NCBI GenBank assembly: GCA_017416805.1
Contig: JAFQBB010000038.1
Location: 26,587-90,586 of the forward strand
DNA: 64,000 bases
Reading direction: 5' to 3'
Origin: Bacteroidaceae bacterium
GTDB taxonomy: Bacteria > Bacteroidota > Bacteroidia > Bacteroidales > Bacteroidaceae
Positions 1 through 63,540 of the stretch are shown here, in pieces (the stretch's first letter is position 1; each line of letters begins with the position of its first letter). The notes under the pieces were generated by a model. It made no database searches, had not been told where the DNA came from, and worked only from the letters and a program-made list of their open reading frames with translations. A program made the translations under genes and the position numbers.

Positions 1-233
1 TCAAAGCAAGAAAAACAGACACAACAAGTCCCCTTAGAAATGAACTATAAGCGGCTTGATAAGTGAACTATTATTCACTTATCAAGCCGCTTATAGTTCA
101 TTTACCAAGCCGTAAATAGTTCACTTAGGGTAGCCGTAAGTAGTTCACTTGGGTAAGCCGCAAGTAATTCATTTGACATTCTATAAACTGCTCATTCTGA
201 GAGGTATCAATAGCCGCTTTCTCATAAGACTTC
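1..233. other. Intergenic stretch at left window edge
   Basis: No gene is visible. It holds a perfect 30-bp inverted repeat and an array of 23-24 bp units (described separately) lying 3' of the DUF2461 gene. The left 37 bases are A-rich and show nothing further. Confidence 0.8.
38..172. repeat. Repeat array A: 30-bp perfect hairpin plus 23-24 bp units
   Basis: Positions 38-67 and 74-103 are exact reverse complements of each other (30 bp) around a 6-base loop, 68-73. From about 72 the same unit then repeats in one direction with AGTTCA-type cores at 72, 95, 118, 142 and 166, so the period is 23, 23, 24 and 24 bp. Each unit also carries an AAGCCG-type (once TAGCCG) segment between cores. The left arm is therefore an inverted copy of the unit. 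Function unknown. Read directly from the sequence. Confidence 0.9.
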
Positions 234-911
234 TTACCCTTCTCTTGAGTAGGCTATACTTCTATTGAGATATTGCAAGAACGGGTATGTCAATCTGAAA
301 AGTCCAGCTACACGTTGGGGCAGATTCTCTGAGAGGAAAAACAGGTCATCAGGAATATGACAAAGGCAGAACTTCTTCAAACGGATATATTCCTCGTAAG
401 GAGTTCCTTCGGGAAATCCCTTAGGATTCCGTTTCAAACTTCCATCACAATCAAGGCAGAAATAAGGAGCTGCCTGCTGTAGCGTCTGTTCAAAATCACC
501 CTGCCCATAGGCTATATCCTCGCGCAGGATACGGAGCGCTTCAGGAGTGCAGCAATAGTCTCCCACAGCCAACATGTGATTGTCCGGATAACCTTCTCCA
601 CCGGTAGCGACATGAAAATAATAGCCCGAGAATCCCGATTTCTTTCCTCCTGGAGCGATGAAAGCTCCAAAGTGAGTCTTATAAGGACTTTTATCTTCCG
701 AGAAACGCACATCACGATAAATACGATACGTGCAATCCTTGGCTGTAAGTCCAGCAACTGAAGGGTCAAAAGTAGAAATCTCACTTATCAACTCATCCAC
801 AAGCCGTTGGAACTTTCCCTGCACATAAAGATACTGCCCCTTATGGGCATTGAACCACGTACGGTCATTATTCTGCTTCAGCTCGCGAAGAAATGCAATA
901 ACATCTTTCAT
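234..911 (-). CDS. DUF2461 domain protein
   Basis: A 225-residue protein with the features of the DUF2461 (TIGR02453) family. These are an N-terminal FLRELKQNNDRTWF segment (residues 7-20), in the usual position for 'leucine-rich helix, NN, WF', and a central YRIYRDVRFSEDKSPYKTH region (about 62-80). There is no signal peptide or membrane segment, so it is probably cytoplasmic. The family has no established biochemical function. The length is normal. The start is an ATG, and a TACCTTTG -7 box lies about 29 bases upstream. The gene stands alone: the next gene upstream (1046-3469) runs in the same direction but ends in its own terminator. Confidence 0.85.
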   Translation of the reverse strand: MKDVIAFLRELKQNNDRTWFNAHKGQYLYVQGKFQRLVDELISEISTFDPSVAGLTAKDCTYRIYRDVRFSEDKSPYKTHFGAFIAPGGKKSGFSGYYFHVATGGEGYPDNHMLAVGDYCCTPEALRILREDIAYGQGDFEQTLQQAAPYFCLDCDGSLKRNPKGFPEGTPYEEYIRLKKFCLCHIPDDLFFLSENLPQRVAGLFRLTYPFLQYLNRSIAYSREG

Positions 912-939
912 AACTCTACATCTATTGGATTATTGGTGG

Positions 940-947
940 CAAAGGTA
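940..947 (-). promoter_or_regulatory. -7 box for the DUF2461 gene
   Basis: On the minus strand this reads TACCTTTG, an exact match to the Bacteroidetes -7 consensus TAnnTTTG, 29 bases before the start codon. I see no clear -33 TTTG at the usual spacing. Confidence 0.55.
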
Positions 948-980
948 GCACTTTTTAATTGTTGAACCTTCCTAAAACAG

Positions 981-1018
981 AAAAAAAAGGCCGTCCCAAC
1001 TCTTTGAGACGACCCTTT
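981..1018 (-). terminator. Rho-independent terminator of the 807-residue protein gene
   Basis: On the minus strand a GC-rich stem (GGGTCGTC pairing with GACGGCC, allowing G-U pairs) is followed by a run of eight T. It lies 28 bases after the stop codon at 1046. Confidence 0.75.
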
Positions 1019-1045
1019 CACGAGAAAAAAATAATTACTAACTAT

Positions 1046-3469
1046 TTACTTAACCAAAATCTTTTTACCTTTCAATATGTAGATGCCACCCTTCTTGAGA
1101 GCCGTTACACGACGTCCCATAAGGTCGTAGTAGATAGCCTCAGCCTCTTCAGCCTGATACTGATTCAACTGAATACCTTCACCCGGTTTCTCACCCACTT
1201 CACCATCTTCAGGATAATAGATAGGCTCCTGTCCGGGCAGGAATGAGAAGGTATATTTCTCGGGTGCAACCCATGATGAATCCTTGGCAAGGTGATCTTC
1301 CTTGGTTGTGCGGAAGTATCCGCTGAATGCATCTACTACAGGAATACTGTCGCGTACCATGCAGATGTTTCCTTCAGTGTCAAGTCCCAAGGTATAGTAC
1401 TCGTAGCGAGCCTTGCTGTCGGTCACCTTTGTTCTGCCAGACACTCCATAGAGTTGTGTGCTGTGAACATCGAAGTTAGAAGTAGCCGATGCAGTTGCAG
1501 GTACGGGGTTGAAAGCTACACCGCTCTTAGCCTTGATAAGTACCGGAGTAGCAACGGGCACTACACCGTCCTGAATGAGGGTCAAGTTGATAACACCATT
1601 ATTTACTGTATCTTCCTCAACAGTATAAGCCTGCACCTCGATTGGCAACTCTACGCTGTCGGTAGGATTGTAGTAAACGCTCCATCCCTTCAAGTCGGCC
1701 GATGTAGTCATCTTAGTATCGTAAATGGTGATGTAGTTCAAACGAGGACCTGTATTGGCTGTCTTTCCAGTCTCGAAAAGGAAGTCACCGTCCTTCTCCA
1801 CACGGAATTCGAAGTATCCGTTAGCTGCATGGAAGTTGTCAGCAACAGCCACATCGTTCATGGCTACAGGTGCCATGTTGGTTCCATAAATCTCAATCAT
1901 TTGTCCCTTCTTCAGGCCGCAAACACCTACATAACCGTTTTCATAGAGGCAACGCAAAGCACTGCTGTTGAAGGTCCATCCGTGTTGAGTGTTTCCGTGA
2001 GTATATGCAATGTCCACCAATCCAATACGTGTTTCGGGCAATACAATATTCTCGCCAGTAATGGTATCCAGACCTACAACAATTTCCTGTACGTCGTAAG
2101 TCAAAGTGTCATTAATCTGCTGTGAGAAAAGAACCTCACCAAATCCAGTATAACCAGAGTAGCCATCGATGGTCATGTAGGTAGCCACCTCAATGCGGTC
2201 GGCAGCCATGCGGCTGTAAGGAGCAAGAGCTGTTCCTGTAAGCGTGTCAGAATTTACATAACCAATAGCCTCGGCATAAGCTGTGAATTTTTGACCAACG
2301 GGGACAGTGATAGTAGTATTGTTCACCACTTCCTTTGTTTCTCCACCCATAGTCCAAATGATAAGAGCATCGGGGTTGCAAAGAATACTTGAAGTAGTTG
2401 TACTCAATGTAGCTGTATATGATTGGGTTGCGGGGTCAAACACTGGACTCTTGATAGTTACGGGATTCAAGGCTATTTCTGTACCGGCATCAAACTTCAA
2501 CGTATCGCTCTCGGCAGAAACAGAACCCTTTGTAGCACGAACAAGCAGTTTCACATTGTTGGCAATGGTGATAGGTCTGCTTCCGTATGCAATCCAGTCA
2601 GAGAAGGGTTCGTAATAAGCCGTATCGTTCACTTCGTCATATACACGGTTACTGATAATGTAGTCAAGAGTCACACCCGGTGTTACACAAGCAAGGGTAA
2701 TATCACGCTCAGTACCATAAACGAACGAAATCTCTGCCGTTGGAACTTCTACATGTTCGAGAGAAACCACCTTATAGACATTCAAATTATCAAGTTGAAT
2801 CTTACCTCCATTCGTACCCGGATGAACCTGTATCTGGCGGAACAATCCAACAGAGTCCATTTGGATATCATAAGTTTTGTTGAAAGCCTCGACTGAGCTG
2901 TTTTTATCAGTAATGGTAAAGGTCGCTTTTTCACCTTCTACTGCCAACTCATAATGATAGTACAAAGCAGGATCGATGACTACAGTTCCCAAAGTATCAT
3001 ACTTTGCATTAGCATAACTATACAACACATTGTACACCGAATCATTGGCAGCAATCTGACGGAGTACAACATAACTGGTTGTATTTTTCGGAAGGTTATT
3101 GTTTTTGGTTCCTCCTTTTGTTCCCATCAAAAAGAAACCACCATAATTCTTTTTCTTGTCATACTCCAATAGCATGTCAAATTCCACTCCCCAATTCTCA
3201 ATTCCACCTAATTCTTCATCCAAACTTTTCCAAGCTTTAAAAGATGGACGGGGATTCGAAGCATGCTTATTTACCACCTGAAGGAATTTGTTGCCGGTAG
3301 CTTCCTCCGTTTCCACGGTTACAGTTGTGGTATAAGTATTCCATCCATGATTGTCCGAGGCCATCGTCTCGTAATCCTCAGTAAGCACACTTTGCTTAAT
3401 GGTTGTTTGCGCCATCGCCCCCATTCCCATCAAAAGGGCAAGAGCTGAAGTCAATGTAATTTTTCTCAT
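1046..3469 (-). CDS. Secreted multidomain protein with sorting-type C-terminal tail
   Basis: An 807-residue exported protein. Residues 1-20 form a signal peptide ending AMA-Q. About 30-235 looks like a jelly-roll, LamG-type domain (GVEFDMLLEY, GGFFLMGTKGG, then LDNLNVYKV at its end). About 240-420 appears to hold two chitobiase/hexosaminidase C-terminal-like modules, judged by repeated 'ITLA..PGVTLDY' and 'SDTLKF/SDTLTG' strands. The last ~35 residues have the pattern IYYDLMGRRV...GIYILKGKKILVK, like type IX secretion/sorting tails of Bacteroidetes. I recognise no catalytic domain. It follows the second SusD gene after 190 bp but has its own -7 box and a leader hairpin, so it can be expressed separately. 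A role in binding a glycan is inference. Confidence 0.6.
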   Translation of the reverse strand: MRKITLTSALALLMGMGAMAQTTIKQSVLTEDYETMASDNHGWNTYTTTVTVETEEATGNKFLQVVNKHASNPRPSFKAWKSLDEELGGIENWGVEFDMLLEYDKKKNYGGFFLMGTKGGTKNNNLPKNTTSYVVLRQIAANDSVYNVLYSYANAKYDTLGTVVIDPALYYHYELAVEGEKATFTITDKNSSVEAFNKTYDIQMDSVGLFRQIQVHPGTNGGKIQLDNLNVYKVVSLEHVEVPTAEISFVYGTERDITLACVTPGVTLDYIISNRVYDEVNDTAYYEPFSDWIAYGSRPITIANNVKLLVRATKGSVSAESDTLKFDAGTEIALNPVTIKSPVFDPATQSYTATLSTTTSSILCNPDALIIWTMGGETKEVVNNTTITVPVGQKFTAYAEAIGYVNSDTLTGTALAPYSRMAADRIEVATYMTIDGYSGYTGFGEVLFSQQINDTLTYDVQEIVVGLDTITGENIVLPETRIGLVDIAYTHGNTQHGWTFNSSALRCLYENGYVGVCGLKKGQMIEIYGTNMAPVAMNDVAVADNFHAANGYFEFRVEKDGDFLFETGKTANTGPRLNYITIYDTKMTTSADLKGWSVYYNPTDSVELPIEVQAYTVEEDTVNNGVINLTLIQDGVVPVATPVLIKAKSGVAFNPVPATASATSNFDVHSTQLYGVSGRTKVTDSKARYEYYTLGLDTEGNICMVRDSIPVVDAFSGYFRTTKEDHLAKDSSWVAPEKYTFSFLPGQEPIYYPEDGEVGEKPGEGIQLNQYQAEEAEAIYYDLMGRRVTALKKGGIYILKGKKILVK

Positions 3470-3525
3470 ACGCTTTAAGTTTTTAGATTATAATTATTGT
3501 TCTTAATTTATCTGGTTTCGGGGTA

Positions 3526-3556
3526 GGGTGTGGGGCAAGCCTCTTGCCCCTCACCC
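3526..3556 (-). repeat. Hairpin in the 5' leader of the 807-residue protein gene
   Basis: GGGGCAAG (3532-3539) and CTTGCCCC (3543-3550) are perfect inverted repeats around three bases, extended by GGGTG (3526-3530) and CACCC (3552-3556) beyond one mismatch. It would lie in the transcribed leader if the -7 box at 3581-3588 is used. No T-run follows on either strand, so it is not a simple terminator. Confidence 0.7.
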
Positions 3557-3580
3557 ACTCCATTTTCATTATTCTGTCGG

Positions 3581-3588
3581 CAAAGGTA
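3581..3588 (-). promoter_or_regulatory. -7 box for the 807-residue protein gene
   Basis: The minus strand reads TACCTTTG, a full match to TAnnTTTG, inside the 190-bp gap after the second SusD gene. The expected transcript would have a leader of roughly 100 bases. No good -33 element is seen. Confidence 0.5.
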
Positions 3589-3660
3589 GGCGGTTTTCCC
3601 TATACTCTCCTTGTACTTTTTATCGTAATATATGGACATTTTTTATCTATCACCCCTCTT

Positions 3661-5352: not shown

Positions 5353-8300
5353 TTAGAATTTCAAGTTAACACCAAATTTTACACTGCTCGGTTGTTGTAC
5401 CTTGGAGAGGTCCAATCCTTGATAGGCTTCTCCGTATCCGTATGCAGCCATGGGTGAAAGGCCGGAGTATTCGGTCCAAGTGAAAAGGTTTTCACCCGTT
5501 ACATACAGTGTTCCCGAACGGAAGAATCTCAAGAATGTCTTGTCGAAGGAGTAGGAGAAGGTCAACTCTTGCAAGCGCAGGTACGAAGCATCTTCCAACC
5601 AACGGCTTGAAAAAGCTGAATTACCCAAAGGATCGCCATAAGTGGCTTGGGGCACATTGGTTACATCGCCCTGATCCCTCCAACGGCGGTTCACGGCTTC
5701 CGACTGGTTATCAAAACTTTTCATCGACTCCATCTGACGGCGAACAGCATTGTAAATCTTGCCACCATAAGCAAAGTTGAAGTCGGCAGTCAGGGCAAAC
5801 CCTTTGTAGCGCAATTCTGTATAGAAACCTCCAAAGAAATCGGGTTGAGCTGTTCCTAACATCACACGGTCGCTGTCGGTAATCTTTCCGTCATTATTCC
5901 GGTCCAGATAGTGTACATCACCTGCCTTGAAGGGTTCTCCTGTCGAGTTTGTCAGGTAGGTTGTCCTTTGCTTTTCACCCGGCGCAGAGGGTATCGAGTA
6001 GGCTTTCTCTGCCTCCTCATTCGTAGAGAAGACCCCCAACATCTCCCAGCCGTAGAACTGGTAAGGAGCCTCGCTTTCCACAGTTATCAGCTGCATTCCG
6101 TCGTCTCCCTTGGTTATGATGGGTTCATTGCTTCCTGTCGAGGTGATTTCGTTCACGGGCAGGGCTATATTACCTCCTACTTTCCACTCAAATCCTCCAA
6201 TGCGTACCGGCACGACCTCTGCCGAGAACTCCCAACCTTGGTTGTTCATTTCGCCGATGTTGGCATAGTAGGGAGAAGAGCCGAACACAGACTCGGTGGG
6301 TTGCAACATTATCATGTCGGTCACCCGATTGCGGAAATAGTCAACGGTGAACGACAGGCGATTCTGCAACAAAGCCGCGTTCAGTCCTACGTTGAACAGG
6401 TTTACCCGCTCAGGTTTCAGACTGGTATTGGGCACTCCCTGACGCTCAATGGTAGAAATGGAACTGTATGCCCCTGCATAGTAGTTATATCGGGAAAGTT
6501 CGCTGGCAAAACGAGAGTTTCCGCTCCAACCATATTCTGCACGCACATCCAAACGGTTTAACCAAGTCAAGTCCTGCAAAGCCACATTCCCTTTACCCAA
6601 CCAGGCGGCCGTGAATGAGGGATAGAATTGCATGCATGTGGCATCGTTGCCGGTCGAAGAGGCTCCGTCCAACGACAGATTGATGCCTCCCTGCCATTGG
6701 CGGGCATAGGTATAACCGGCATGAGCATAGAGGTTCAGCCAGTTCCAGGTATCCAGGTATCCGAAGAAGTGACGGCCCACTTCATTGGTATAGTTGAGTG
6801 TACGGTAGAAATCGTTGGGCGTATTGCGTCCTTCACCGGCATCATACTCCTTGCGGGTGATAAGTCCCTGCACACCGGCCAGAGCATCCAGACTGTGCAC
6901 ATCGTCAAAGACGCGGTTGTAACGGGCATTTACCCCGTAAAACATGTTCAGGGTCTCAGCCACACCGCTACGCGACAAGTTACGGGCTGTGCCATAGGCA
7001 TCGGTCACGGGAATGATAGTCATCTCTGTCGAACCTGGGACAAACAGCTTCTCGGAGTTGTAGTTGTAGAACAAGCCTCCAATTCCTGAAAAACTCCAAT
7101 AAGGTGTAGGTTTGTAATTGACAGCCGCCTTCATATTCACCTCCAGCTGCTGGTTGGCAGTTTCGAGCGTATTTACAATAGCCAAGGGATTGGACACCGC
7201 AAACGTTGTTGAGGTATTATGCCCGTAATAATAGGGAGAGTAAGAGGAAATCAAGTTTCCGTCGCGATCTTTATTGAATGGCGACAATACCGGTGCCTTG
7301 GCCAGAGCCGCCAACATCGGATTGTATGAGATGTTCATACCCTGAATCTGATAATCGCCCGCAAGGTAAGCCATATCTATCGAGGCTGAGATATTGACAG
7401 TCTTGCTTACAAGGATGTTACCGTTCAATCCCAAGTTGAAACGCTGCTGTCCGGTATTCCGCAAGATACCTTCCTCATCGCTGTATCCCAACGACAAGTC
7501 GTATTTGGCAATGTTGTCACCTCCCTCCACACGCAACAGGTGGCTGTGAGAGAGTGTACGGTCATAAATCTCGTCCTGCCAGTCGGTCTGGTTGTTATAG
7601 TAGTCACCATACACCTTGTCGGCCGGATCGTTCAGGAAGGGAAAGTGTCCGAACATCGTCCCTTGGTCAGGAAAAGCAGTTCTTCCCAAATCTGTCAGGT
7701 AATCATTGTAAGCCGCTCCCGACAATATGGGATAATTCTTGGCAGCCCATCCCATACCTACTTGACCGTAGTAGCTTACTTGAGTCTCCATATCGTTCGA
7801 GGTAGCACCATCCGTTTCAATCAGGATGACACCGTTAGAGCCTAACGAACCGTACAAGGAGGCTTCAACACCCTTCAGCACCGTAATGTTCTGGATATTC
7901 TGAATGTGGAAAGCCTGAAACAGGTCGCGTGCATACCCTTCCGTCACTTGCGACATGGCCTTGTCGGGCATATAGGGAATGCCATTTACCACAATCAACG
8001 GCGCATTGTCGGCAGTCATGGATCGGATACCACGCAGATTCAGGTAACTACCTTCACCGGGCATACCACTCATGCGGCGTTGGAACAGACCTGCAAAACG
8101 TCCGTTCAAGGTTCCATCTATCCGGTTGGAAGTCAGGCTGAAATCCTTTTTTGCCACATTCTGTGCAGCCACTGCTTCAAGGTGCGACTGCCGATTGTCT
8201 TCCCGTTGGGGAAGTATCAGTTCTTCGTTGTATCTCGACCGTTTCTCACTGACAAGGAGCACCGTAACCTCTTTACGTCCATTAACCAACTGGTCAACCG

Positions 8301-8552: not shown

Positions 8553-10271
8553 TTAATAGCAATTGGCTGTCGGACGGAATGTGAAATGTTGGGGATTGAT
8601 GCGGTTGCCCATATCGCCCCACCCGTACGCTTGGAATCGTATTTCCAACCGTTGCATCTCTTCTATGGTAAAAATGCACAATTCCTTTCCGTCACGGTCG
8701 TACTTATCGTTCAGGCTCTTATTATATCCTTCCGGATACCCGCCCGAGCCTCTGTCACGGCTGAAGTTGCTCATGTTTGCAGCCGAAATGGTTCCGGCCT
8801 TCTTTCCATTCACAAAGACATCCAACGGTCCGTGCATATTCTTGATGTTACCAAACCCTATGTGAAGTGTGTATTCACCGGGCGGTATCATGTAGGGCTG
8901 TGCAGCATACGAGTTGTCAGCATTCAAATGGAAATGATAAGGATAAAACGTAATGGCGCAATTCTGCGTTGTCTGGTCGGCACAGTCAAACCATACGGAG
9001 ATGTCTTCGTGTATTGGCCAACCTTCACCCGGAGTCCAAGCTGCAGCATCGGTCGATACGCGGTTGTACGTCATATTATCCAACACATAAAAAGCAGCCT
9101 TGTCGGCTTCCGTAAGGTATTGATAATACCTTGCATAGTCCTTGATGCGGTAAATCAGTACATTCTGTGGCACCTTCAGCGAAGTCATGTAATAGGCAGT
9201 TCCGTTGCTCATCGGCACGGGATTATCGGTATCTACCTTGTTTACGGTCGTTCGCCACTGCTTGCCAAATGTGGATGTAAGGTCTATCTCCTCGCTGTTG
9301 TGGAATGCTTCGGGCTTCAGTTCCTCGTTGAAGAATGCACATTGGAAACACCATTGTTCTATGATGGAATCGGCTCGAGAATAGCCTGTAATCTGCCCGT
9401 TAGGGTCGCATCCAAGTTCTGCGGCCACATTCTCCTCAAACTCGTTCCACGAAGCTATCTCGGCTTTGGCACCTTCAATGGCCTGAGTCAGCACATCGTT
9501 GTTGGGAATGAGCATGGTCATCCGCGCCGAGGCAGAGGTCAGGTCGATGCCATTCTTTTCGAAATAGGGATAACGGACCACCACAACTGAGTCGTAAATG
9601 GAGTTTCCGGCATCGTCAATACCGAGAACCTTGCTGGCTTCACGGTCAAATATCTTTTGGGCATATTTCCCAACCATTCCCTTGAAGAGCGAATATTCCT
9701 CGTCGGGCAAGCGTTCAAGTATCTCTAACAGGGAACGGGGTATCTCAATCAGTCTGTCCAACTCATAGATATAGGCATCCTGCACCTTGAACATGCGCTT
9801 CACCATAACACCGGATATGGCAATCGAATCCTGACCGATATTTTCACCATTATCCTCATTCTTGGCATAAACCGACTTTTCCACATCCACGTATCGACCG
9901 GTCCATGTAAGCAGGCGGCTGCCGTCTGTAAGCGATGATGGAGTGAACAATCCTGTGGTTATGTGGGTCTGAGCCGTATATAGCGAATCCTCTGTCAATG
10001 TATTCAAGTTCTCGTTTCCCACCACAAAAAGGGTGTATTTCATTCCGCGTTGCTGCATTTCGTCCAAGATTCCTTGACTCTGGAACAGCTGCAACATCTG
10101 TGAGTAGCCCGCTTCAGACTTCAAGAAGTCGGCAGCCGACATCCCCACCTCCTCCACCTGTTTGTTGTTTCCTGTCAGGGATTCTTCGGTGTACCATTCG
10201 TCGTCACACGCCGTACCTCCACACATCAGGAAGAGGGAGGCACAAATTATATTCCAATACTTCTTTTTCAT
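8553..10271 (-). CDS. FAS1 (fasciclin)-domain lipoprotein, third of the operon
   Basis: A 572-residue lipoprotein (lipobox GGTAC, Cys22, then DDEW). Residues about 40-200 form a FAS1 module (SQMLQLFQSQGILDEM, KYTLFVVGNENLN, YIYELDRLIEI). A second, more divergent module follows (about 205-400: KYAQKIFD, ARMTMLIPNNDVL, NVLIYRIKDY). The C-terminal ~150 residues look like a beta-sandwich of the glycan-binding type (IPPGEYTLHIGFGN, PLDVFVNGKKAG), and the neighbouring 581-residue protein has a similar module. FAS1 domains mediate adhesion in other organisms; in Bacteroidetes such proteins often sit beside SusC/SusD pairs. Here it may take the place of a surface glycan-binding protein (inference). 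Its start is 16 bp after the preceding FAS1 gene. Confidence 0.8.
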   Translation of the reverse strand: MKKKYWNIICASLFLMCGGTACDDEWYTEESLTGNNKQVEEVGMSAADFLKSEAGYSQMLQLFQSQGILDEMQQRGMKYTLFVVGNENLNTLTEDSLYTAQTHITTGLFTPSSLTDGSRLLTWTGRYVDVEKSVYAKNEDNGENIGQDSIAISGVMVKRMFKVQDAYIYELDRLIEIPRSLLEILERLPDEEYSLFKGMVGKYAQKIFDREASKVLGIDDAGNSIYDSVVVVRYPYFEKNGIDLTSASARMTMLIPNNDVLTQAIEGAKAEIASWNEFEENVAAELGCDPNGQITGYSRADSIIEQWCFQCAFFNEELKPEAFHNSEEIDLTSTFGKQWRTTVNKVDTDNPVPMSNGTAYYMTSLKVPQNVLIYRIKDYARYYQYLTEADKAAFYVLDNMTYNRVSTDAAAWTPGEGWPIHEDISVWFDCADQTTQNCAITFYPYHFHLNADNSYAAQPYMIPPGEYTLHIGFGNIKNMHGPLDVFVNGKKAGTISAANMSNFSRDRGSGGYPEGYNKSLNDKYDRDGKELCIFTIEEMQRLEIRFQAYGWGDMGNRINPQHFTFRPTANCY

Positions 10272-17005: not shown

Positions 17006-19363
17006 TTATTTTAATAATCCATCAATAATGTGCATCGAACCGTCGGCAAAACAGAAGGGCAGACAGCCATAGTCCTCAACCACCCGGCAGGGAGTGGTAT
17101 TCTCGCCATCTTTCAGAACAATGGAGAGTCCGCTGCCATCGTCGGTGTAAAGCAAGGTAGAACGGACAGGCACCTTGTTGTTCGTATTGGTCCCGTCGTC
17201 TTCAAGCTGAGCCAGACTGTAATATTCGCCCGACTTCATTTCCGAACCCACGTACGGACAAGTGGGAATAGCGGCAGCATCGACAAAGAACGACTTCAAG
17301 AAACTCTGCAACTCCTCGGGGTAACGCACCGTCAAAGTAAGTCCATTAGAGCCCTTTCTGTAGGCCAACACTCCTGGCACATTTCTTCTTGATAAGGCTT
17401 CATACAACACCTCGTTGGAGGGGATAAAGGCAATGTATCGCCCGGCCCCCTCAAACAGGGACACGTTATTTCCATCCACCATATTGGCGGCTGCCAGCAG
17501 TTTCGAGAAGACGTAGTAGGGATAGCGTTCGTCGTTGCATACAGCCAGACGCTTTTGCAAATTGTCCTCGACTATGGAAGTGCCCAACAGACCCTTCAAG
17601 TTGGTAGCATCGTAGGTATAAACCTTTCCGTTGCTCCATGCCGTACCGTCGTTTGTCAGCACCTCGGAAAGTGGAGCAAAGGGATTGACAACCTCATGGC
17701 CTGATTCCATCGGTTCCAACAACTGATTGAAGCGGCTGGAGTAGGTAATCTCTCCGTCGCGCACAAACCAATAGCGGTATGGCTTAGCCAAAGGCACCAC
17801 TTGAGTCCCCTCGGCCATCAAGTCGTACTCGCCAATGGCATAATGAGTAGAGACAATTTCGGAAAGAGCAGAATTGCTGAGCGAAGCGGCCGTACCGTCT
17901 GCTTCCACAGTTTGCAGGCTGTTGCCGTTTGCATACTCCATCAAGTGGATATCTTCAAGGGCAAAAGTGGCTTCGGAAGGCATCAGCACGGTATAGGCCA
18001 ACTTGTCTGAGGCCAAAGCTACCAGAGTCTCCTCGTCGGCATGAAGGGCATAGAGGAATGGCAGGTAGTTACGGTCGGAGAAGGCCGGACCCGTTACGGC
18101 ATCGAACAGGCGGGGAGCCTGGAACTGCCCGACCCCGTAGAATGCACCGTTTGTACAGATTGTGCGGTCCTCTATCTCCGCGGGATTGAAGTTGTACTTC
18201 ATTCCCCAACGGTTCAGGGCCTTGCCCGATGTAATCTCCTCAGGGAAGATGATTGAACCGCTATTGACACACTCGGCCAGCAGATACTGTACCACCAGTC
18301 TGTCCAGCGACTCCAAGTCGGCATACCCGTTTCCTGCCCAATAGGAGTCAAAGAAGTCGGCCAATGCCTCGTTGGTAGGGGCGAACAGGCTGTATGCCTT
18401 GTAGGCCAATGTGTCGAGGCGCACATAGTCGGTTGTAGGCCAATCCATTGCTATAGGAGCAAGCGGTTCGGCATGACTGTGTACAAACAGGGAGTCGGCA
18501 CCCAAGGCCTCGCCATAGTCGGCGGTCAGAGTGGCATCGTAGATATATTCCGAGAAACGGTCGTACAACGAAAGGAAACGACTGTACTCCGGATGTTCCA
18601 ACAGATGTCCGTGAAGGGTCTCTTCCGGCTCCAGCACCTTGTCAATCTTGTATATATACCCGTTGGAAGTAGGCACGGCATACTTTTCGACCGTGGCTCC
18701 GGCAATATTGAAGCCATCATCTCCCGTCCACAACGAACTGGGGTAGAAGTATTCATAGTTCGACTTGGCATCGATACCCTTGGTCTTGAAGAAGAGATGA
18801 GAAAAAACCGGAACAAAACGTTCCTGGTGATAGATGGTAATCTCTTTGCCCGTGGTGGGGTGTATGGCCTTGGTTGTGGGTGCCGACGAGTGTGAACGGA
18901 ACTTGTAGTAGAGTCCCTTGTCGGTCATGGTGGCCGTATCTGTATTGGTGGCTATCTGCCCTTCGGGACGGAAATTCTCCATCTTGCTCTTGTTGTACGA
19001 GTAGTAGAGCAGGTGATACCCTACCAACTCCTGCAACTCTTCCTTGGACATATCCCCTATCGAGGCATAGCCATGTTCCTGCAGGTAAGTGTTCATGGCC
19101 TCATCGTCGGGAGCCAACGTAGTGGTGATACCTTTCCCGTAGAGGTAGGGCTTGAAACCTGCCCGTTCGACCGCTTGAAGGAACGAGTTGTAGTTGCCCG
19201 CCTCAGCAAGCATGTCCCACGTGTTCCCCTTCTGGTCGGGCAATGGCTCGTAGTGTTCTTCCAGTTTGTCGTCGCAACCGGGCGCAAACAGAAGCAGTGC
19301 AGCCGAGAACAGCAGCAACCTGCCCGATGTTTTCATTCTTTTCATTGTAATCTGCGCTATCAT
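17006..19363 (-). CDS. Four-module FAS1 (fasciclin) lipoprotein, first gene of the operon
   Basis: A 785-residue lipoprotein (LFAPGC, Cys30, then DDKLEEHYE). I count four FAS1-like modules. They run about 45-245 (SFLQAVERAGF, TTTLAPDDEAM, LVGYHLLYYS), 250-430 (FLSLYDRF, YSLFAPTNEAL, LVVQYLLAECV), 435-600 (FLYALHADEETLVAL, YTVLMPSEATF) and 620-785 (FSKLLAAANMV, YIAFIPSNEVL, MHIIDGLLK). Met7 or Met10 could also be the start, since the hydrophobic signal begins after Met10. Being first in the operon, it is probably the most strongly expressed and a likely surface adhesin or ligand-capture protein (inference). A -7 box lies 29 bases upstream. No regulator gene is adjacent. Confidence 0.85.
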   Translation of the reverse strand: MIAQITMKRMKTSGRLLLFSAALLLFAPGCDDKLEEHYEPLPDQKGNTWDMLAEAGNYNSFLQAVERAGFKPYLYGKGITTTLAPDDEAMNTYLQEHGYASIGDMSKEELQELVGYHLLYYSYNKSKMENFRPEGQIATNTDTATMTDKGLYYKFRSHSSAPTTKAIHPTTGKEITIYHQERFVPVFSHLFFKTKGIDAKSNYEYFYPSSLWTGDDGFNIAGATVEKYAVPTSNGYIYKIDKVLEPEETLHGHLLEHPEYSRFLSLYDRFSEYIYDATLTADYGEALGADSLFVHSHAEPLAPIAMDWPTTDYVRLDTLAYKAYSLFAPTNEALADFFDSYWAGNGYADLESLDRLVVQYLLAECVNSGSIIFPEEITSGKALNRWGMKYNFNPAEIEDRTICTNGAFYGVGQFQAPRLFDAVTGPAFSDRNYLPFLYALHADEETLVALASDKLAYTVLMPSEATFALEDIHLMEYANGNSLQTVEADGTAASLSNSALSEIVSTHYAIGEYDLMAEGTQVVPLAKPYRYWFVRDGEITYSSRFNQLLEPMESGHEVVNPFAPLSEVLTNDGTAWSNGKVYTYDATNLKGLLGTSIVEDNLQKRLAVCNDERYPYYVFSKLLAAANMVDGNNVSLFEGAGRYIAFIPSNEVLYEALSRRNVPGVLAYRKGSNGLTLTVRYPEELQSFLKSFFVDAAAIPTCPYVGSEMKSGEYYSLAQLEDDGTNTNNKVPVRSTLLYTDDGSGLSIVLKDGENTTPCRVVEDYGCLPFCFADGSMHIIDGLLK

Positions 19364-19560: not shown

Positions 19561-19648
19561 ATAAAGTTTAAGCCTTATACTTATAATGTTTAAGCCTTAT
19601 ACTTTATAAGTTTAAGCCTTAAACTTTATAGGTTTAAGCCTTATACTT
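19561..19648. repeat. Repeat array B: four 22-bp palindromic units
   Basis: Four head-to-tail units of exactly 22 bp start at 19561, 19583, 19605 and 19627. The third contains a perfect 19-bp palindrome with a one-base centre (AAGTTTAAG-C-CTTAAACTT). The others differ from it by one or two bases. Same geometry as arrays C, D and E but a different sequence. Confidence 0.92.
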
Positions 19649-19740
19649 TTATTCAAGTAGGCACTTTAATCCCATAAAATGCCGTTCGAATGGTGTTCAA
19701 ACGGCATTCTAAAGCAGGTTTTCTTGTCGCGAACTGTAGG

Positions 19741-20111: not shown

Positions 20112-21953
20112 TTATTCTGTTCCACCAGCAGCCTCTTCTTCGGCTATGATTTCGGACCACTTTGTACCCTCTGCGTTTACCAATTTGATACGTTTTGCAT
20201 AATCACCACTTTCAACTCCTGAAATATTTGTTGTCAGATAATCATAGCCTTCTTTTGTAACATAGACAGGTATAGGTTTACTTGATGTACTGTAAGCTAC
20301 TTGATATAAGAAATTAGACACAGTCGGCATAGATTCAAATGAGAAATTAGTCAAATCAAGTTCTTGCATCAAATTGCATTTACCAAACATATATTCCAAA
20401 CTCTCAACATTAGAAATATTAAAACTCCTTACATTTACATTTGTAAGTGCACCTGCTTCACGAAACATCTCTTTCATAGTAGTCACTTTTTCTGTATTGA
20501 AATTGCTTAAATCAAGAGTTGTCAATTTAGAACACTTATAAAATAAACTGCTCATATTCGTTACATTAGTAGTATTGAATCCACTTAAATTAAGAACTGT
20601 CAGCCCCGAGCAACCACGGAAGAACCGATACATACTCGTAACACTTCCTGTATTAAAGTTACAACCAAAATCTATACCGATTAAAGAAGAAAGGGTATAA
20701 AACATTTCCGAACAGTTGCTATTTGCCATGAACTCTTTAGCCGAAGTGTGAATCTCAAGCCAATCACCATTAGAAACAATATAGGCTGTCGTCCCAGTTG
20801 TATTCCCAAAGGTTGTTTCAGAAGTCTTGGCACTTCCTGCCACAAAACGTACTTTCGTACAATCCCCTAATGCTGCATTCAGATTGGTTTTAAAAGTACT
20901 TCCTTTAGGCAACGTACAAGCAGTCTCGTTCAATTCAGGGATTGTCAGCGTGAATCCATAGAACTCGCCGGCCTGCCAGTCGTAGGTTTCAACTTCGGTC
21001 CTGGCCTTCAATTGTTCACCAGAGAGGGTGTAGAGGGTGTAAGTTCCATCAGTAGTAGTGACACGGACACGCAGATAGGCGTTTTGCAAAGCAGCGTCGG
21101 TGCCTAAGGGGAGCACCAAGGCATAGGCAAGGTAGCTGCTTGAGGCATCGATAGTTACACCTTCGGAGCCTCCCAACACGGTGGTCACGGCAGTATGGGG
21201 AGTCTCAGTACTGTAAGCCAGACCGCTGGCAGCTGAATAGGTGGCCATAGCCGATGAGAGGGGAGCGGCAATGACACCGTTCGTAGCCTCGACGGCATCG
21301 ATTGTCACACTCTTCACGGTAACGGCTGATGCCCCGCTGTTCACAATATTGAAGCCGAGCGTGGCAGGAATGTGATTGAACGCCAAGTTGTTGTCGCCTG
21401 CATTCAGTGTGGCTGTGGCATACATCTGCATGTAGGGTTGCAGGTGCATAAGGTCGCCGCTTGCCGTCTGCGTAAAGCTTGCGGGCATCGGCATCTCTAC
21501 TGAGAAACCATTGGCGGTAGTGGTCACTTTATCGCTCGATACGGGGGTTACGGCATGAATGGTCTGTCCGGTAAGAGCTGCGTCCTTGTGGAAACTGTTC
21601 ACCGTGGTGAAGGTGGCAGTTCCGGCATTGTCAGTACCCGGCGCGATAGTGAGGTATGAGGCATATTGGGCCTCGCCCACTTCGTCGCCATCAACTTTGT
21701 AACTGGGCGTGAAGGTTCCTTCCGAAACGATGGCACATACCAATTCCGTACCAACCTGGTCCTCGTCCCAAGCAAAGGTCAAGCTGGTTTCTCCATCCAC
21801 CCAGTGAGCACGTGTTGCAGTCGTACCGAACACCAATTGTTGCAACTCGGATGCAGCAGGCTTACCAGCCGGTGGCGTCATCTGTGTGGTGTCATCACTG
21901 CTACAGCCTGCCACTATCGCGGCAGCTGCCAAAAGAAATAGGTTCTTTTTCAT
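20112..21953 (-). CDS. Fimbrillin-like lipoprotein with BspA-type leucine-rich repeats
   Basis: A 613-residue lipoprotein (lipobox VAGC, Cys17, then SSDDT, an export signal typical of surface lipoproteins). Residues about 25-335 resemble the fimbrillin family: TRAHW, LTFAWDEDQVG, and long Ala/Thr-rich beta strands ending YDWQAGEFYGFTLTI. Residues about 385-570 hold repeats of the DUF285/BspA type (GCSGLTVLNLSGFNTTNVTNM, CSKLTTLDLSNFNTEKVTTM). The gene follows a 55-residue peptide gene by 21 bp containing AGGAGGA. The C-terminal half is visibly richer in A and T than the N-terminal half, which suggests a mosaic gene. Pilus subunit or adhesin is the likely role; which one is not decided by sequence. 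Confidence 0.78.
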   Translation of the reverse strand: MKKNLFLLAAAAIVAGCSSDDTTQMTPPAGKPAASELQQLVFGTTATRAHWVDGETSLTFAWDEDQVGTELVCAIVSEGTFTPSYKVDGDEVGEAQYASYLTIAPGTDNAGTATFTTVNSFHKDAALTGQTIHAVTPVSSDKVTTTANGFSVEMPMPASFTQTASGDLMHLQPYMQMYATATLNAGDNNLAFNHIPATLGFNIVNSGASAVTVKSVTIDAVEATNGVIAAPLSSAMATYSAASGLAYSTETPHTAVTTVLGGSEGVTIDASSSYLAYALVLPLGTDAALQNAYLRVRVTTTDGTYTLYTLSGEQLKARTEVETYDWQAGEFYGFTLTIPELNETACTLPKGSTFKTNLNAALGDCTKVRFVAGSAKTSETTFGNTTGTTAYIVSNGDWLEIHTSAKEFMANSNCSEMFYTLSSLIGIDFGCNFNTGSVTSMYRFFRGCSGLTVLNLSGFNTTNVTNMSSLFYKCSKLTTLDLSNFNTEKVTTMKEMFREAGALTNVNVRSFNISNVESLEYMFGKCNLMQELDLTNFSFESMPTVSNFLYQVAYSTSSKPIPVYVTKEGYDYLTTNISGVESGDYAKRIKLVNAEGTKWSEIIAEEEAAGGTE

Positions 21954-22207: not shown

Positions 22208-22357
22208 CAGGAGTTCAGGAGTTACAGGAGTTACAGGAGTTCAGACGATAGTACAGCAAAACTATTGGCTTTAACTCCTAACGGAGCGAAGCGAAGTGAT
22301 AACTCCTTTAACTCCCTTTATCTCCCTTTATATCTCTTTAACTCCTTTATCTCCTTA
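22208..22357. repeat. GGAGTTA-type hairpin element upstream of the peptide/fimbrillin genes
   Basis: The left part repeats (A/T)CAGGAGTT at a 10-11 bp period. The right part repeats its complement (TAACTCC, TTTAACTCC, TATCTCC). The two could pair into a long imperfect hairpin around GAGCGAAGCGAAG. A related element with perfect 19-bp arms lies at 46689-46827. Confidence 0.7.
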
Positions 22358-39667: not shown

Positions 39668-39779
39668 CAGCCGCAAAACGGGCAAGTCCTATACGGTCAG
39701 CTCCTTTCGAATCCTCCAGGGCTTGACCGCAGCAAAGGTAGAAGGTTGTAGCGACGCGATATAGCAAGCTTGCCCACCC

Positions 39780-39853
39780 GCCTCTTTAGCTCAGTTGGCC
39801 AGAGCACGTGATTTGTAATCTCGGGGTCGTTGGTTCGAATCCGACAAGAGGCT
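39780..39853 (+). tRNA. tRNA-Thr (anticodon TGT)
   Basis: A 74-base cloverleaf. The acceptor GCCTCTT pairs with AAGAGGC, followed by discriminator T. The D-arm is GCTC..GAGC. The anticodon loop TTTGTAA (39812-39818) has anticodon TGT at 39814-39816. The T-arm is GTTGG-TTCGAAT-CCGAC. The CCA end is not encoded. The anticodon stem CGTGA/TCTCG has a central T-T mismatch. Decodes ACA and probably other Thr codons by wobble. Confidence 0.95.
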
Positions 39854-39900: not shown

Positions 39901-40039
39901 TAGATGTGTTTTTCATTCTTCACCCCCTTCCCTACAACATCCTTACGCCTTACAGCACACAATACAACTTGTCATCACACCAACGGATGGGGTCTTTAAC
40001 AATATAACAGAAAATCAACTCATTGCATTGTCTTTCGGA

Positions 40040-40097
40040 AAGATACGTATCTTGGCGCGCAAAGATCCGTATCTTGAGACCTGAAGATCCGTATCTT
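40040..40097. repeat. Repeat array C: three 14-bp palindromes at 22-bp period
   Basis: AAGATACGTATCTT (40040-40053, perfect palindrome) is followed by AAGATCCGTATCTT at 40062-40075 and 40084-40097 (one base off palindrome). Start-to-start distance is 22 bp both times. The 8-base spacers GGCGCGCA and GAGACCTG are unrelated. Confidence 0.92.
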
Positions 40098-40123
40098 CAA
40101 CGGATTCCAAATAATAGCGAGCC

Positions 40124-50640: not shown

Positions 50641-50804
50641 AGAGAGTAGGCCGAGTCGTGAGTGGTGACTCGGCCTACTCTCTCCCGATGACTCAGGTAT
50701 CTCTCCCTTGATGACTCAGGCATCTCTCCGTTCATGACACAGGTGGGTCTCGGCAAACGACCCACGTGGGTCTCTGGCCAAGACCCACCTGTCTCTTTCG
50801 GGGG
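50641..50804. repeat. Repeat array D: 17-bp perfect hairpin plus six 23-bp units
   Basis: Positions 50641-50657 and 50667-50683 are exact reverse complements around nine bases. From 50667 six units follow with starts at 50667, 50690, 50713, 50736, 50759 and 50782, a constant 23 bp. Each begins with GAC and ends its first 14 bases in TC. The fifth is a perfect 14-bp palindrome (GACCCACGTGGGTC). As in array A, the left arm is an inverted copy of the first unit. Confidence 0.9.
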
Positions 50805-56746: not shown

Positions 56747-56750
56747 ACCT

Positions 56751-58655: not shown

Positions 58656-58675
58656 TTTTGCCACAAATAGTCGTG

Positions 58676-58683: not shown

Positions 58684-58704
58684 GCAAAATAACCTTAATA
58701 TGTT

Positions 58705-58712
58705 TACTTTTG
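58705..58712 (+). promoter_or_regulatory. -7 box for the GSCFA-murF/alr-endonuclease genes
   Basis: TACTTTTG, a full match to TAnnTTTG, 22 bases before the ATG at 58735. It faces away from the dxs promoter and the two must share the same stretch of DNA. Confidence 0.6.
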
Positions 58713-58734
58713 CACTGTTTTTTTGTTCAATTCT

Positions 58735-62177: not shown

Positions 62178-62189
62178 TTCTCCCCCCAA

Positions 62190-63215
62190 ATGAGGTATTT
62201 GTCCCTTCTTGCTTTATTGGGCATTTCCATATGCCTTCAAGCACAATCTCCGTTAAAGCCTGACACCCTGCGGGTCATGTTTTACAATGTCGAGAACCTG
62301 TTTGATTGCAAGGACGACACCCTGAAAGACGATGCCGAGTTCCTGCCCAAAGGGGCAAAGAAATGGAGTCACTATCGCTATTGGAAAAAACAAAAAGCCA
62401 TAAGCCGGGTGATTGCCGCCGTTGGCGACAGACGTATGCCTGCTCTTGTAGGGCTCTGTGAGGTCGAGAATGATAGTGTACTATCGGACTTGACCAAACG
62501 CTCACCACTCCGTACCACCGGATACGATTATGTCATGACCTCATCGCCCGATGAACGGGGCATGGATGTAGCGTTGCTCTATCTGCCCGAATCCTTCCGC
62601 CTCCTTTCATGGAGGGAGATAAGGGTAAATGGACTTCGCCGGCCTACACGAAACATTCTTCACACTTCAGGGATACTTACTACTTCTGACACATTGGACG
62701 TTTTCGTCTGCCACCTCCCCTCACGTCGGGGCGGTATCCGCCAAAGCGCCCCTTCCCGCAAACAAGCGGCACATACGTTGCAACTTGCTATAGACTCATT
62801 GTTATCCATCCGCTCCGTGCCCCGCATAATCATTATGGGGGACTTCAATGATGAACTGAAGGGAGCTCCCTTGAAAGAAACATTACATGTAGTCCAACCC
62901 GGCGAGAAATATCCGCAGGAAAACGACCAGTTCCTCCTCGACCTGCTCGGAGCCGAAAAGAACGGAAGTTACTTCTACCAAGGCAAATGGGAGTTGATTG
63001 ACCACCTGTTGGTCTCCCCTTCTTTACTAAACCCCGAAAATAGCATATATACAAACGCCTCCTTGGCAAGAATTGCCAGATTTCCCTTCCTATTGGAACA
63101 CAATCCGAAATACGGTCTCTCCCAACCCTTCCGCACCTACTTGGGAGGTCATTATTTGGGTGGATACAGCGACCACTTGCCCATAGTGACAGATATTATT
63201 ATTGGTGTCCGTTAG
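62190..63215 (+). CDS. Exported endonuclease/exonuclease/phosphatase-family protein
   Basis: A 341-residue EEP-superfamily protein with a signal peptide (MRYLSLLALLGISICLQA). All catalytic blocks are visible: MFYNVENLFDCKDD (about 30-43), LVGLCEVENDSVL (metal-binding Glu), FVCHLPSRRGG, IIMGDFNDEL, and GYSDHLPIVTDII (final Asp-His). It acts outside the cytoplasm, most likely as a nuclease or a phosphodiesterase/phosphatase; the substrate is not decided by sequence. It starts 12 bp after the MurF-Alr stop, so it belongs to the same transcript. Confidence 0.9.
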   Translation: MRYLSLLALLGISICLQAQSPLKPDTLRVMFYNVENLFDCKDDTLKDDAEFLPKGAKKWSHYRYWKKQKAISRVIAAVGDRRMPALVGLCEVENDSVLSDLTKRSPLRTTGYDYVMTSSPDERGMDVALLYLPESFRLLSWREIRVNGLRRPTRNILHTSGILTTSDTLDVFVCHLPSRRGGIRQSAPSRKQAAHTLQLAIDSLLSIRSVPRIIIMGDFNDELKGAPLKETLHVVQPGEKYPQENDQFLLDLLGAEKNGSYFYQGKWELIDHLLVSPSLLNPENSIYTNASLARIARFPFLLEHNPKYGLSQPFRTYLGGHYLGGYSDHLPIVTDIIIGVR

Positions 63216-63251
63216 AACTTTTACGACCATTTAGACTTTAGGTTCATGCCG

Positions 63252-63399
63252 TTCTGTCACCCCGAGCGCAGTCGACCATACCTTGAGTAAAAAAATCAAA
63301 AGAGGTTTTCGATGAGGCAAGGCCGAATAAGGGGATCTGAGTATAGCATAGAGGCCATCAGTAAAACTCTGAGATCCTTCGACTGCGCTCAGGACAGAG
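63252..63399. repeat. MITE-like element with GAGCGCAGTCGA ends
   Basis: GAGCGCAGTCGA (63264-63275) and its exact complement TCGACTGCGCTC (63379-63390) are terminal inverted repeats, flanked further out by TTCTGTCA and (A)GGACAGA. The ~100 bp interior has no ORF of note. The word GATCCTTCGACTGCGCTC is familiar to me from dispersed Bacteroidetes intergenic repeats. No transposase is present. Confidence 0.7.
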
Positions 63400-63460
63400 A
63401 CAGCATAATTTACAACCGACTTTTCGGACCAAAAAATTGTAAAAAAACGGACCTGAAAAA

Positions 63461-63540
63461 TGAACATATGTTCAAGTGCCTCTGAACATATGTTCATGTG
63501 CCAACGAACATATGTTCGTGGCCATTTGAACCTATGTTCC
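63461..63540. repeat. Repeat array E: four 14-bp palindromes at 22-bp period
   Basis: TGAACATATGTTCA (63461-63474, 63483-63496), CGAACATATGTTCG (63505-63518) and TGAACCTATGTTCC (63527-63540). The first three are perfect palindromes. In unit 3 both outer bases have changed together, keeping the symmetry. Starts are exactly 22 bp apart. The 8-base spacers differ but share a TG.GCC-like word. Confidence 0.95.

Follow-up and report, generated by a model that had tools for sequence, protein, structure and literature searches.

Arrays of units set about two helical turns apart, usually three to five in number (up to about nine) and spaced by 21–24 bp with a mode of 22 bp, occur in most of the Bacteroidaceae that we sampled. 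They were first noticed as five arrays, A to E, in one window (the whole 64,000-nucleotide stretch analysed) from a Bacteroidaceae bacterium; that observation is confirmed, and it extends further than had been claimed. At roughly even odds (a probability of about 0.5), we consider such arrays to be phased sites for dimeric DNA-binding proteins, belonging to families scattered by MITEs whose copies are kept behind genes.

All five arrays were found at the positions proposed for them in the original prediction. Their features are the following (a strand is given where the feature has one):

38..172, array A: a perfect 30-bp hairpin (38-67/74-103), then direct 23-24-bp units with the core GTTCACTT
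19561..19649, array B: GTTTAAGCCTTATAC four times at 22 bp
40023..40111, array C: AAGAT-N4-ATCTT three times at 22 bp; conserved element of about 90 bp
50641..50804, array D: units of 23 bp together with an 18-bp hairpin
63462..63473, array E palindrome 1: GAACATATGTTC; conservation 100% in 20 copies
63484..63495, array E palindrome 2: conservation 99.6% in 20 copies
63506..63517, array E palindrome 3: conservation 99.6% in 20 copies
63528..63539, array E palindrome 4, degenerate: GAACCTATGTTC; conservation 94.6% in 20 copies
63555..63578, minus strand, right terminal inverted repeat of the E-bearing MITE: 3 mismatches relative to GGNTCTTCTGCAATTTAGTTGAAA; located at G000:C5:90141-90164

TRF returned periods of 23/24 for A, 22 for B and E, and 23 for D, while C escapes TRF and is visible as three palindromes spaced 22 bp. 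The hairpin of A consists of 30 perfect pairs around a loop of 6 nt, and that of D of 18 pairs. The window copy of E has the right end alone, its left terminal inverted repeat not being recognised. The claim that the arrays share no unit is true within the window, but outside it, in the rest of the genome or in the genus, relatives exist for A, C, D and E. Similarly, the proposed location close behind the 3' end of a gene applies to A (62 bp) and D (28 bp) and roughly to E (246 bp), but neither to B, which is separated from the 3' end of 20112-21953 by about 460 bp and lies 198 bp before the start of 17006-19363, nor to C, located 187 bp past a tRNA. An inverted copy beside non-palindromic units, also proposed, proved common but not general: an inverted match of at least 12/14 was present inside the array or no more than 40 bp away in 11 of 26 such families, and shuffled units scored at least 12 in 3 of the 26.

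A census of 2.51 Mb from this genome and its relatives, in stretches not sampled at random (some early own ones were picked at matches to array B, some of the relatives' at terminal-repeat matches, and a set of 80 loci, taken as the best of 268, lies entirely around one gene family), revealed that 119 of 160 tandem arrays had a period of 21–24 bp, 71 of them exactly 22. TRF rows with fewer than 2.4 copies, with periods outside 10–60 or overlapping and lower-scoring had been removed before counting, and 7-9-mer microsatellites were excluded (45 of 205 rows with identity above 0.6 at lag 7, 8 or 9). Outside crude ORFs, 102 of 105 periods fell near 11, 22, 33 or 44 bp (6 at 10–11, 86 at 21–24, 7 at 31–33, 3 at 44–46 and 3 others), so that, as predicted, other periods were rare and not widely spread. 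The census does not include stretches L316, L318, L319 and L331 (42 kb; G015, G017, G018 and G003), for which a separate count returned no arrays at 21–24 bp. No arrays were detected in 41 kb of three other Bacteroidaceae genera (G015, G017 and G018), and controls from E. coli (300 kb) and from other Bacteroidales families (160 kb) contained none at 21–24 bp. Abundance was also uneven, with none in 60 kb of G009 and one in 160 kb of G006.

Distances between palindromes led to the same spacing. In 304 kb they peaked at 22 bp, with 15 pairs versus 2.0 in shuffled sequence at a match of at least 6/7; perfect 7/7 palindromes gave four pairs at 22, one at 21 and two at 44 bp, compared with a mean of 0.0 in ten shuffles. 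Among equally spaced palindrome chains, 13 of 18 in 704 kb had a step of 21–24 bp, and the shuffles, made from 60-base blocks of the whole sequence and not of intergenic DNA alone, yielded few chains (1.9 per shuffle, at any period). One chain counted among the 13, L206:10020, looks like chance. The strict chain test was weak in the relatives (395 kb), where only 2 of 6 chains were at 21–24 bp and each shuffle gave 1.5 chains. The period remained at 22 bp at varying palindrome length, from a core of 12 bp in E to spans of 16 bp (L303) and 19 bp (L237). Geometry is thus kept while sequence is free, as originally proposed, across many unrelated unit sequences and several genera.

Palindromic symmetry of at least 0.75 was observed in 20 of 52 families, where a permuted null expects 2.0. 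About half of the 52 are not clearly palindromic, and for these the dimer sites are only putative. Symmetric two-sided changes numbered 36, compared with a null of 14.8 (sd 4.8, maximum 30 in 500), in a test whose register was chosen so as to favour symmetry. In L376, two three-unit arrays adjoin, one on AAGGTGTACACCTT and the other on AAGGTATATACCTT, with one imperfect unit each. A motif common to all families was discarded, since no shared k-mer exceeded shuffles in a weak test that used one array per family and over-merged them (one group held 58 of 121). Six of 119 arrays contained the heptamer TTGGCAC (0.7 on average and at most 4 in shuffles), namely four E copies and two G012 arrays inside elements with E-type ends; because all of them have these common ends, its recurrence reflects that group.

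Some families have been dispersed by transposition. Array E is carried by a MITE whose inverted ends are 24 bp long and whose target duplications measure 8 bp; the array occupies 28 places in its own genome. Thirty elements with both ends, two of them sharing one right end, were collected from this genome and its relatives; they are 86-247 bp long, multi-copy and without coding capacity. Their 8-bp flanks matched at 5.33 positions versus 2.89 (sd 0.25), length 8 alone standing out, and the target duplication was perfect in 9 elements and retained at least 6/8 in 14. The terminal inverted repeat was present in 10 of 15 genus genomes, the own one included, and a reversed control gave none. E-type ends also bound a 1558-bp IS of a relative (G012:C6:21566-23123), whose ORFs carry DDE_Tnp_ISL3 (PF01610) and Zn_ribbon_ISL3 (PF14690); with its transposase divided among three ORFs, this IS may be dead, and no array was seen in it by eye. 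A target duplication of 8 bp is characteristic of the ISL3 family. The shared ends, the 8-bp duplications, the short length and the copy number therefore fit an ISL3-family MITE. The AAGTATCTTAAGATACTT arrays also lie within MITEs that share terminal repeats with E and have 8-bp target duplications, and different palindromes ride inside this one set of ends.

No ISL3-type ends were found at A, B, C or D, the sole end on contig C5 at no more than 3 mismatches being the one that adjoins E. Array A nevertheless occupies 17 places in its own genome (window copy included), five in G012 and two in G002; copies of C are mainly in G002 and G012, and relatives of D occur in the own genome, G005 and G011. 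The GAAATATATATTTC arrays form a dispersed family, as do A and C. Only one copy of B was found in the own genome, and we rejected B as a dispersed family, the next matches examined being 7-mer microsatellites or a tRNA region. With E and the AAGTATCTTAAGATACTT arrays in MITEs with shared ends, and with A, C and the GAAATATATATTTC arrays in dispersed families, the proposal that the common form does not reflect common descent is only half right.

In the families that could be scored, the palindromes are the conserved part. Among the best 20 E copies (of 28), conservation reached 99.6-100% in palindromes 1-3, 80-94% in spacers, and 73-79% in flanks and ends; because these copies were retrieved through the array, their conservation is biased upward, and the spacers and a set of elements found by their ends served as controls. 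In that second set, which required at most 6 end mismatches and two near-exact units, mismatch per site in E elements was 2.1% in palindromes and 17.8% in ends, and the spacing was exactly 22 bp in 28 of 28 gaps (E) and in 14 of 14 gaps. Conservation in palindromes, spacers and flanks with ends was 0.969, 0.874 and 0.733 in the AAGTATCTTAAGATACTT family, its broken middle unit being counted with the spacers, and 0.943, 0.833 and 0.81 in the AAACAATATTGTTT family of G008. In AAGTATCTTAAGATACTT elements, mismatch was only slightly lower in palindromes (6.8%) than in ends (8.1%), owing to a middle unit that is broken in 5 of 7. The automatic procedure left two families unscored, GAAATATATATTTC with 13 copies and A with 17, as their consensus shows only one palindrome centre.

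Gene positions, derived from a simple longest-ORF scheme, placed 63 arrays as 26 convergent, 30 tandem and 7 divergent (base shares 23/55/22%), a count that wrongly puts E in a divergent gap and leaves out 20 of 83 arrays (6 at stretch edges and 14 inside crude ORFs). Placement of the 20 best of 28 E copies showed that E lies behind a plus-strand gene and assigned 12 copies to convergent, 7 to tandem and none to divergent gaps, with 1 unplaced. At L275, a Penicillinase_R (BlaI) repressor gene is preceded, at a distance of 23 bp, by three palindromes spaced 21 bp.

Sites for dimeric proteins on one face of the helix, one of two explanations originally offered, fit these results best because periods lie near multiples of 11 bp, palindromes are conserved wherever they could be scored, and two-sided changes exceed the null; the binding is inferred and the proteins are putative. 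All of the exact TGAACATATGTTC matches listed (100 of 105) lay within E-type clusters and none at a regulator promoter, and a search through solo sites found no candidate gene for the binder.

The arrays could instead act in RNA, as bidirectional transcription terminators or 3'-end hairpins in which adjacent units pair. Such pairing needs form and not sequence, and it would account for the place behind genes and for the favoured convergent gaps. Folding was far above shuffles for E (z -10.3), A (-9.4), B (-6.7), L369 (-5.1) and L225 (-7.7), and less so for C (-3.1) and D (-3.0), but any palindrome array would fold well. One side of E bears a conserved A-run and the opposite side a T-run, and T-runs at both edges occurred in 7 of 86 arrays versus 1.2 expected; yet a T-run at one or both edges was not enriched (17 of 86 versus 18.8), and a pattern scan of 63200-63800 called no terminator-like site at E. 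Moreover, RNA hairpins do not need a constant 22-bp period at varying stem length or periods near 11, 22 and 33. By eye, the E spacers expected to pair in a long hairpin vary without matching changes, and in L233 and L235 the gene is followed directly by another, separate hairpin. Overall we regard this explanation as unlikely, although a terminator role for E in particular remains a rival. Somewhat less probable still is a mutational process without function, in which slippage or template switching at hairpins, with steps that favour about 22 bases and with arms copied from arms, builds the arrays. Unit number does vary among relatives (one unit, 3.7 copies in L237 and 6.7 in L238), arrays are similar within a site and different between sites (L233 versus L235), and non-palindromic arrays have the same period. 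However, copying of whole units should renew the spacers too, whereas E copies keep their palindromes at 22 bp in every gap while the spacers drift, and one would have to assume that the process is rare or does not occur in E. coli and in the other sampled families. Structure-driven copying, the second explanation originally offered, does not by itself explain why the rest of the E element decays faster than the palindromes.

That the palindromes serve the transposon, as sub-terminal sites for transposase or host factors that boost mobility, is improbable in our judgement. The confinement of the listed E sites to E-type clusters and the single set of ends around different arrays agree with it, but the full-length IS of the relative shows no array by eye, decay is more advanced in the ends, which are needed for transposase binding, than in the E palindromes, and arrays without E-type ends have the same geometry. 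Short palindromic repeats behind genes resemble REPs, and 22-bp tandem repeats resemble iterons; even so, an origin as RAYT-mobilised REP-like elements, or as remnants of plasmid or phage iterons, is very improbable in our view. A RAYT/REP origin was rejected because Y1_Tnp (PF01797) has no match in the own genome G000 (an assembly 91% complete) and a single one per genome in 5 of the 15 from the genus, and iterons because four comparisons (E with plasmids and with phages, A with plasmids, C with phages) returned no matches. An E pair scan of viral contigs matched 4 contigs. CRISPR arrays have repeats of about 23-50 bp, unique spacers of like length and cas genes; here the whole unit is only 22 bp and the 10-bp spacers are common to E copies, and this assignment was discarded. 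In passages on the Bacteroides sRNA families FopS and BatR, no link to the arrays was seen.

Tandem operator palindromes of a dimeric repressor are known from the MetJ met boxes, which lie in the promoters of regulated genes. The present arrays resemble such operators (MetJ, or the BlaI-type case at L275) in that several palindromes are set in phase at distances of one to two helical turns, but they lie mostly behind genes and partly form dispersed multi-copy families. The REP/BIME elements of enterobacteria are palindromic, dispersed, intergenic and often behind genes, features shared by the arrays, which differ in their tandem 22-bp phasing, in their many unrelated sequences and in that no Y1 transposase was found in the genome. 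The BrickBuilt MITE of Porphyromonas gingivalis is likewise intergenic, with an internal 23-nt minisatellite of strain-variable unit number, and other repeats of 22, 23 and 41 nt are also mentioned (PMC4596501). It has one unit family, a length of 84-991 nt, leader and tail segments, IS5-type ends and inconsistent duplications (PMC4596501), in contrast to the many, often palindromic, unit families described here, to E palindromes that outlast their ends and to the ISL3-type ends with 8-bp duplications of the E group. Compared by their ends alone, E elements carry GGNTCTTCTGCAATTTAGTTGAAA and BrickBuilt, as printed, the GAGACCTTTGCA type (PMC4596501). The E group is similar to non-autonomous ISL3-family elements in sharing its ends with an ISL3-type IS and in its 8-bp duplications, and differs from that IS in carrying interchangeable phased arrays.

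Under the preferred reading of phased dimer sites, every family would be the predicted site set for one dimeric DNA-binding protein, whose specificity differs per family and whose dimers would sit adjacent on one helix face and cooperate. MITEs would scatter some families, and copies landing behind genes, above all between convergent genes, would be retained, perhaps because they act as insulators or as roadblocks to read-through, or help to organise the chromosome. We advance more tentatively, at less than even odds, that each Bacteroidaceae genome may hold at least about 100 arrays in parallel lineage-specific families, each with its own putative dimeric protein and often MITE-dispersed, in which protein and palindrome change together at a constant two-turn geometry, and that these may constitute a new chromosome-wide system for insulating or organising the DNA behind genes. 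If this is right, a main family of gut bacteria would possess a widespread class of intergenic elements, with no description found in the literature searched, in which spacing and not sequence is conserved. It would also show clearly how transposons can assemble sets of protein-binding sites, and would provide a testable way to new DNA-binding proteins and to the separation of convergent genes in Bacteroides and its relatives.

The window (C5:26587–90586) belongs to a 3.16-Mb draft genome of 64 contigs (91% complete); MAGs of Bacteroidaceae from the guts of ruminants and deer are the nearest named relatives of one of its proteins. Direct inspection of the window sequence confirmed the five arrays as first described:

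38–172, array A
19561–19648, array B
40040–40097, array C
50641–50804, array D
63461–63540, array E

Arrays were called with Tandem Repeats Finder (score ≥50, at least 2.4 copies, period 10–60) in 704 kb of stretches from this genome, window included, in 1.3 Mb from nine other genomes, and in 80 loci (512 kb) of named Bacteroidaceae, with a small number of further Bacteroidales among them. Of 205 rows, 45 were discarded as microsatellites with units of 7 to 9 bases, which left 160 arrays in 2.51 Mb for the census. The original prediction had proposed a scan of the whole genome and related genomes for intergenic arrays with periods of 21–25 bp; in these samples, 119 of the 160 had a period of 21 (24 arrays), 22 (71), 23 (19) or 24 bp (5). 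Periods of the 105 arrays outside crude ORFs were 10–11 (n=6), 21–24 (n=86), 31–33 (n=7), 44–46 (n=3) and others (n=3); as the 31–33 bp class is small and mixed, it is chiefly the dominant peak, with almost no arrays on either side, that speaks for multiples of 11. Arrays of period 33, about three helical turns, lie clear of crude ORFs or on their margins at L011:15017–15102, L201:17718–17810 and L204:11234–11318 (sampled stretches).

The number of 21–24 bp arrays per Mb sampled was 50 in the own genome, 83 in G014, 75 in G007, 50 in G010, 42 in G008, 36 in G012, 15 in G001 and 6 in G006, with 33 in G016, a genome of another genus, and 68 in the 80 loci. A rough extrapolation from these densities, not a direct count, gives at least a hundred arrays per genome. 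None was found in 60 kb of G009. Both controls were empty as well (other families of the order, 160 kb; E. coli K-12, 300 kb), as were four further stretches outside the pooled 2.51 Mb, to which three other genera of the family contributed 41 kb. The own genome also carries a separate microsatellite class of 7-, 8-, 9- and 10-mers (CTTTGAACCTTAAA, CTCATCACTCGTAG, TAATGTGC, TAACTCCTTT), located, among other places, at:

L010:12064–12213, 7- to 10-mer microsatellite
L014:16083–16441, the same class
L016:2528–2589, the same class
window 22300–22357, the same class

Array E has 28 similar places in the own genome (E ≤ 1e-4) and matches in 5 of 14 other genomes of the genus (E ≤ 0.1), strong in three (G002, G006 and G012). 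In the alignment of its copies, likeness runs on into inverted ends, whose sequence occurs in the own genome at 25 forward and 26 reverse sites, whereas the reversed pattern has a single site in each direction. Between paired ends lie arrays of the E type, of the AAGTATCTTAAGATACTT type and of other types; in relatives, by eye, paired ends hold still others, of 1 to about 8 units. In 30 elements from the own genome and relatives, two of which have one right end in common, the 8 bases outside the ends matched at 5.33 of 8 positions versus 2.89 expected (9 perfect), and the signal appeared at length 8 only. The same ends bound a 1558-bp ISL3-type IS in G012 (L084:1001–2558). Its transposase is broken into three ORFs, with matches to DDE_Tnp_ISL3 (E 7.5e-10, 9.1e-12) and Zn_ribbon_ISL3 (1.2e-11). 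ISL3 elements have GG ends and 8-bp target duplications. Given the shared ends, the 8-bp duplications and the transposase ORFs, E and its sister arrays are MITEs of an ISL3-type IS.

Other families are also dispersed: in the own genome, array A occurs at 17 places and the GAAATATATATTTC family at about 14, with fewer for C and D. Of the 35 arrays in the 704-kb sample, 14 had a single occurrence. Thus, common descent, which the original prediction had denied, does account for the families; the denial holds for the geometry common to different families. Two GAAATATATATTTC arrays are surrounded by a second inverted motif, TTATCGGACACCAATA, perhaps another nested element:

L009:7416–7431 and 7651–7666, TTATCGGACACCAATA pair
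L011:8600–8611 and 8815–8826, TTATCGGACACCAATA pair

Among the 20 best-scoring of the 28 own E copies, aligned in a single orientation, palindromes 1 to 4 had mean identities of 1.000, 0.996, 0.996 and 0.946, and the spacers 0.84, 0.94 and 0.80; outside the array, identity fell to 0.733 (left flank) and 0.792 (right end). Since these copies had been found via the array itself, a second set was taken by the ends (≤6 mismatches, two near-exact units required). These 11 elements (39 units) showed 2.1% mismatch per palindrome site versus 17.8% per end site, and 28 of 28 gaps were exactly 22 bp despite element lengths of 122 to 176. In seven AAGTATCTTAAGATACTT elements, 14 of 14 gaps were 22 bp, and the palindromes (6.8% mismatch) fared little better than the ends (8.1%) because the middle unit is broken in 5 of 7. 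Palindromes were the most conserved part both in a 14-copy alignment (palindromes 0.969, spacers 0.874, outside 0.733, the broken middle unit scored as spacer) and in a 6-copy alignment of a G008 family (0.943, 0.833 and 0.81), a scoring that left out the GAAATATATATTTC family and array A. Target duplications are imperfect in 21 of 30 elements, many of them decayed, so many insertions are not young. The simplest reading is that selection kept the E palindromes after insertion.

Palindromic pairing of ≥0.75 was found in 20 of 52 array families (distinct by unit 8-mers), against 2.0 expected from column-permuted arrays; about half are not clearly palindromic. The inverted copy originally seen beside the non-palindromic units of A and D recurs in 11 of 26 such families (match ≥12/14 in or near the array; three with shuffled units) and is not general. 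In a stricter test, 13 of 18 equal-spaced palindrome chains in the own genome fell at 21–24 bp (shuffles, 1.9 chains each); in relatives the result was weak (2 of 6; shuffles, 1.5 each). Between units of 22 palindromic families, both mirror positions changed 36 times and a single position 136 times; the mean number of two-sided changes after shuffling was 14.8 (sd 4.8), with at most 30 in any of 500 shuffles, and as the register was picked for best pairing, which favours symmetry, these changes are support and not proof. By eye, mirror-matched changes appear in L274 (GATAA/TTATC versus GACAA/TTGTC) and L369 (AATGAACGTTCATT versus AACGAACGTTCGTT), and L376 has adjoining three-unit arrays on AAGGTGTACACCTT and AAGGTATATACCTT, each with one imperfect unit. 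The four-base centre is often non-palindromic (L284, GAAAC-AAAA-GTTTC). Four viral contigs (L342–L345) each carry two GAACATATGTTC palindromes 8–12 bp apart.

The original prediction called for the same intergenic site to be compared between strains; here the comparison was made between species. Stretches L233 and L235, from two other species, have a period-21 array behind the orthologue of D's neighbour gene, by eye apparently one shared site with a similar convergent neighbour beyond; their units differ (TTTCACACTGTGGAATATCTA versus TTTCATGACTTGAAATATATG types), yet are alike inside each array. L236 has no array behind this orthologue, and a different neighbouring gene. L237 and L238 share a unit at 3.7 versus 6.7 copies.

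In searches of open-access papers, which covered subscription literature only in small part and included passages of PMC11697453, PMC10861873 and PMC5771137, we found no description of such an array class. The closest system found is BrickBuilt of P. gingivalis, likewise a MITE with a minisatellite of similar period (23 nt), but a single family (PMC4596501).

The 20 best of the 28 E copies were convergent in 12 cases, tandem in 7, divergent in none and unplaced in one. With crude gene calls, 63 of 83 arrays could be placed (26 convergent, 30 tandem, 7 divergent), the corresponding shares of intergenic bases being 23%, 55% and 22%. This placement fits use behind genes, and also the mere loss of promoter insertions. 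Upstream of array C, at window 39673–39853, Rfam identified a Bacteroidales small SRP RNA with a tRNA gene directly behind it.

The main alternative is that the arrays are transcription terminators. E RNA folds as a single long hairpin (-42.1 kcal/mol, z -10.3) flanked by an A-run on one side and a T-run on the other, and T-runs at both edges occur in 7 of 86 arrays versus 1.2 expected; one-sided T-runs, however, are not enriched across all arrays (17 of 86 versus 18.8 expected). The helical repeat in living cells is about 11 bp per turn, and the near-two-turn step stays constant while palindrome length varies, which speaks for duplex DNA with proteins bound along a single face of the helix. 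Exact E-type matches outside E-type clusters were absent among 100 listed of 105. The data contain a direct precedent. In L275 (2042–2107), three palindromes AACTAAA..TTTAGTT lie 21 bp apart, with similar ones in L241 and L299, and the array ends 23 bp before a Penicillinase_R (BlaI-type) repressor gene (E 3.2e-26); from this typical position, it is probably the repressor's own operator. Its phased palindromes resemble those of the gene-trailing arrays, but stand ahead of the repressor gene. By analogy, the arrays behind genes may be similar sites for other, putative dimeric proteins.
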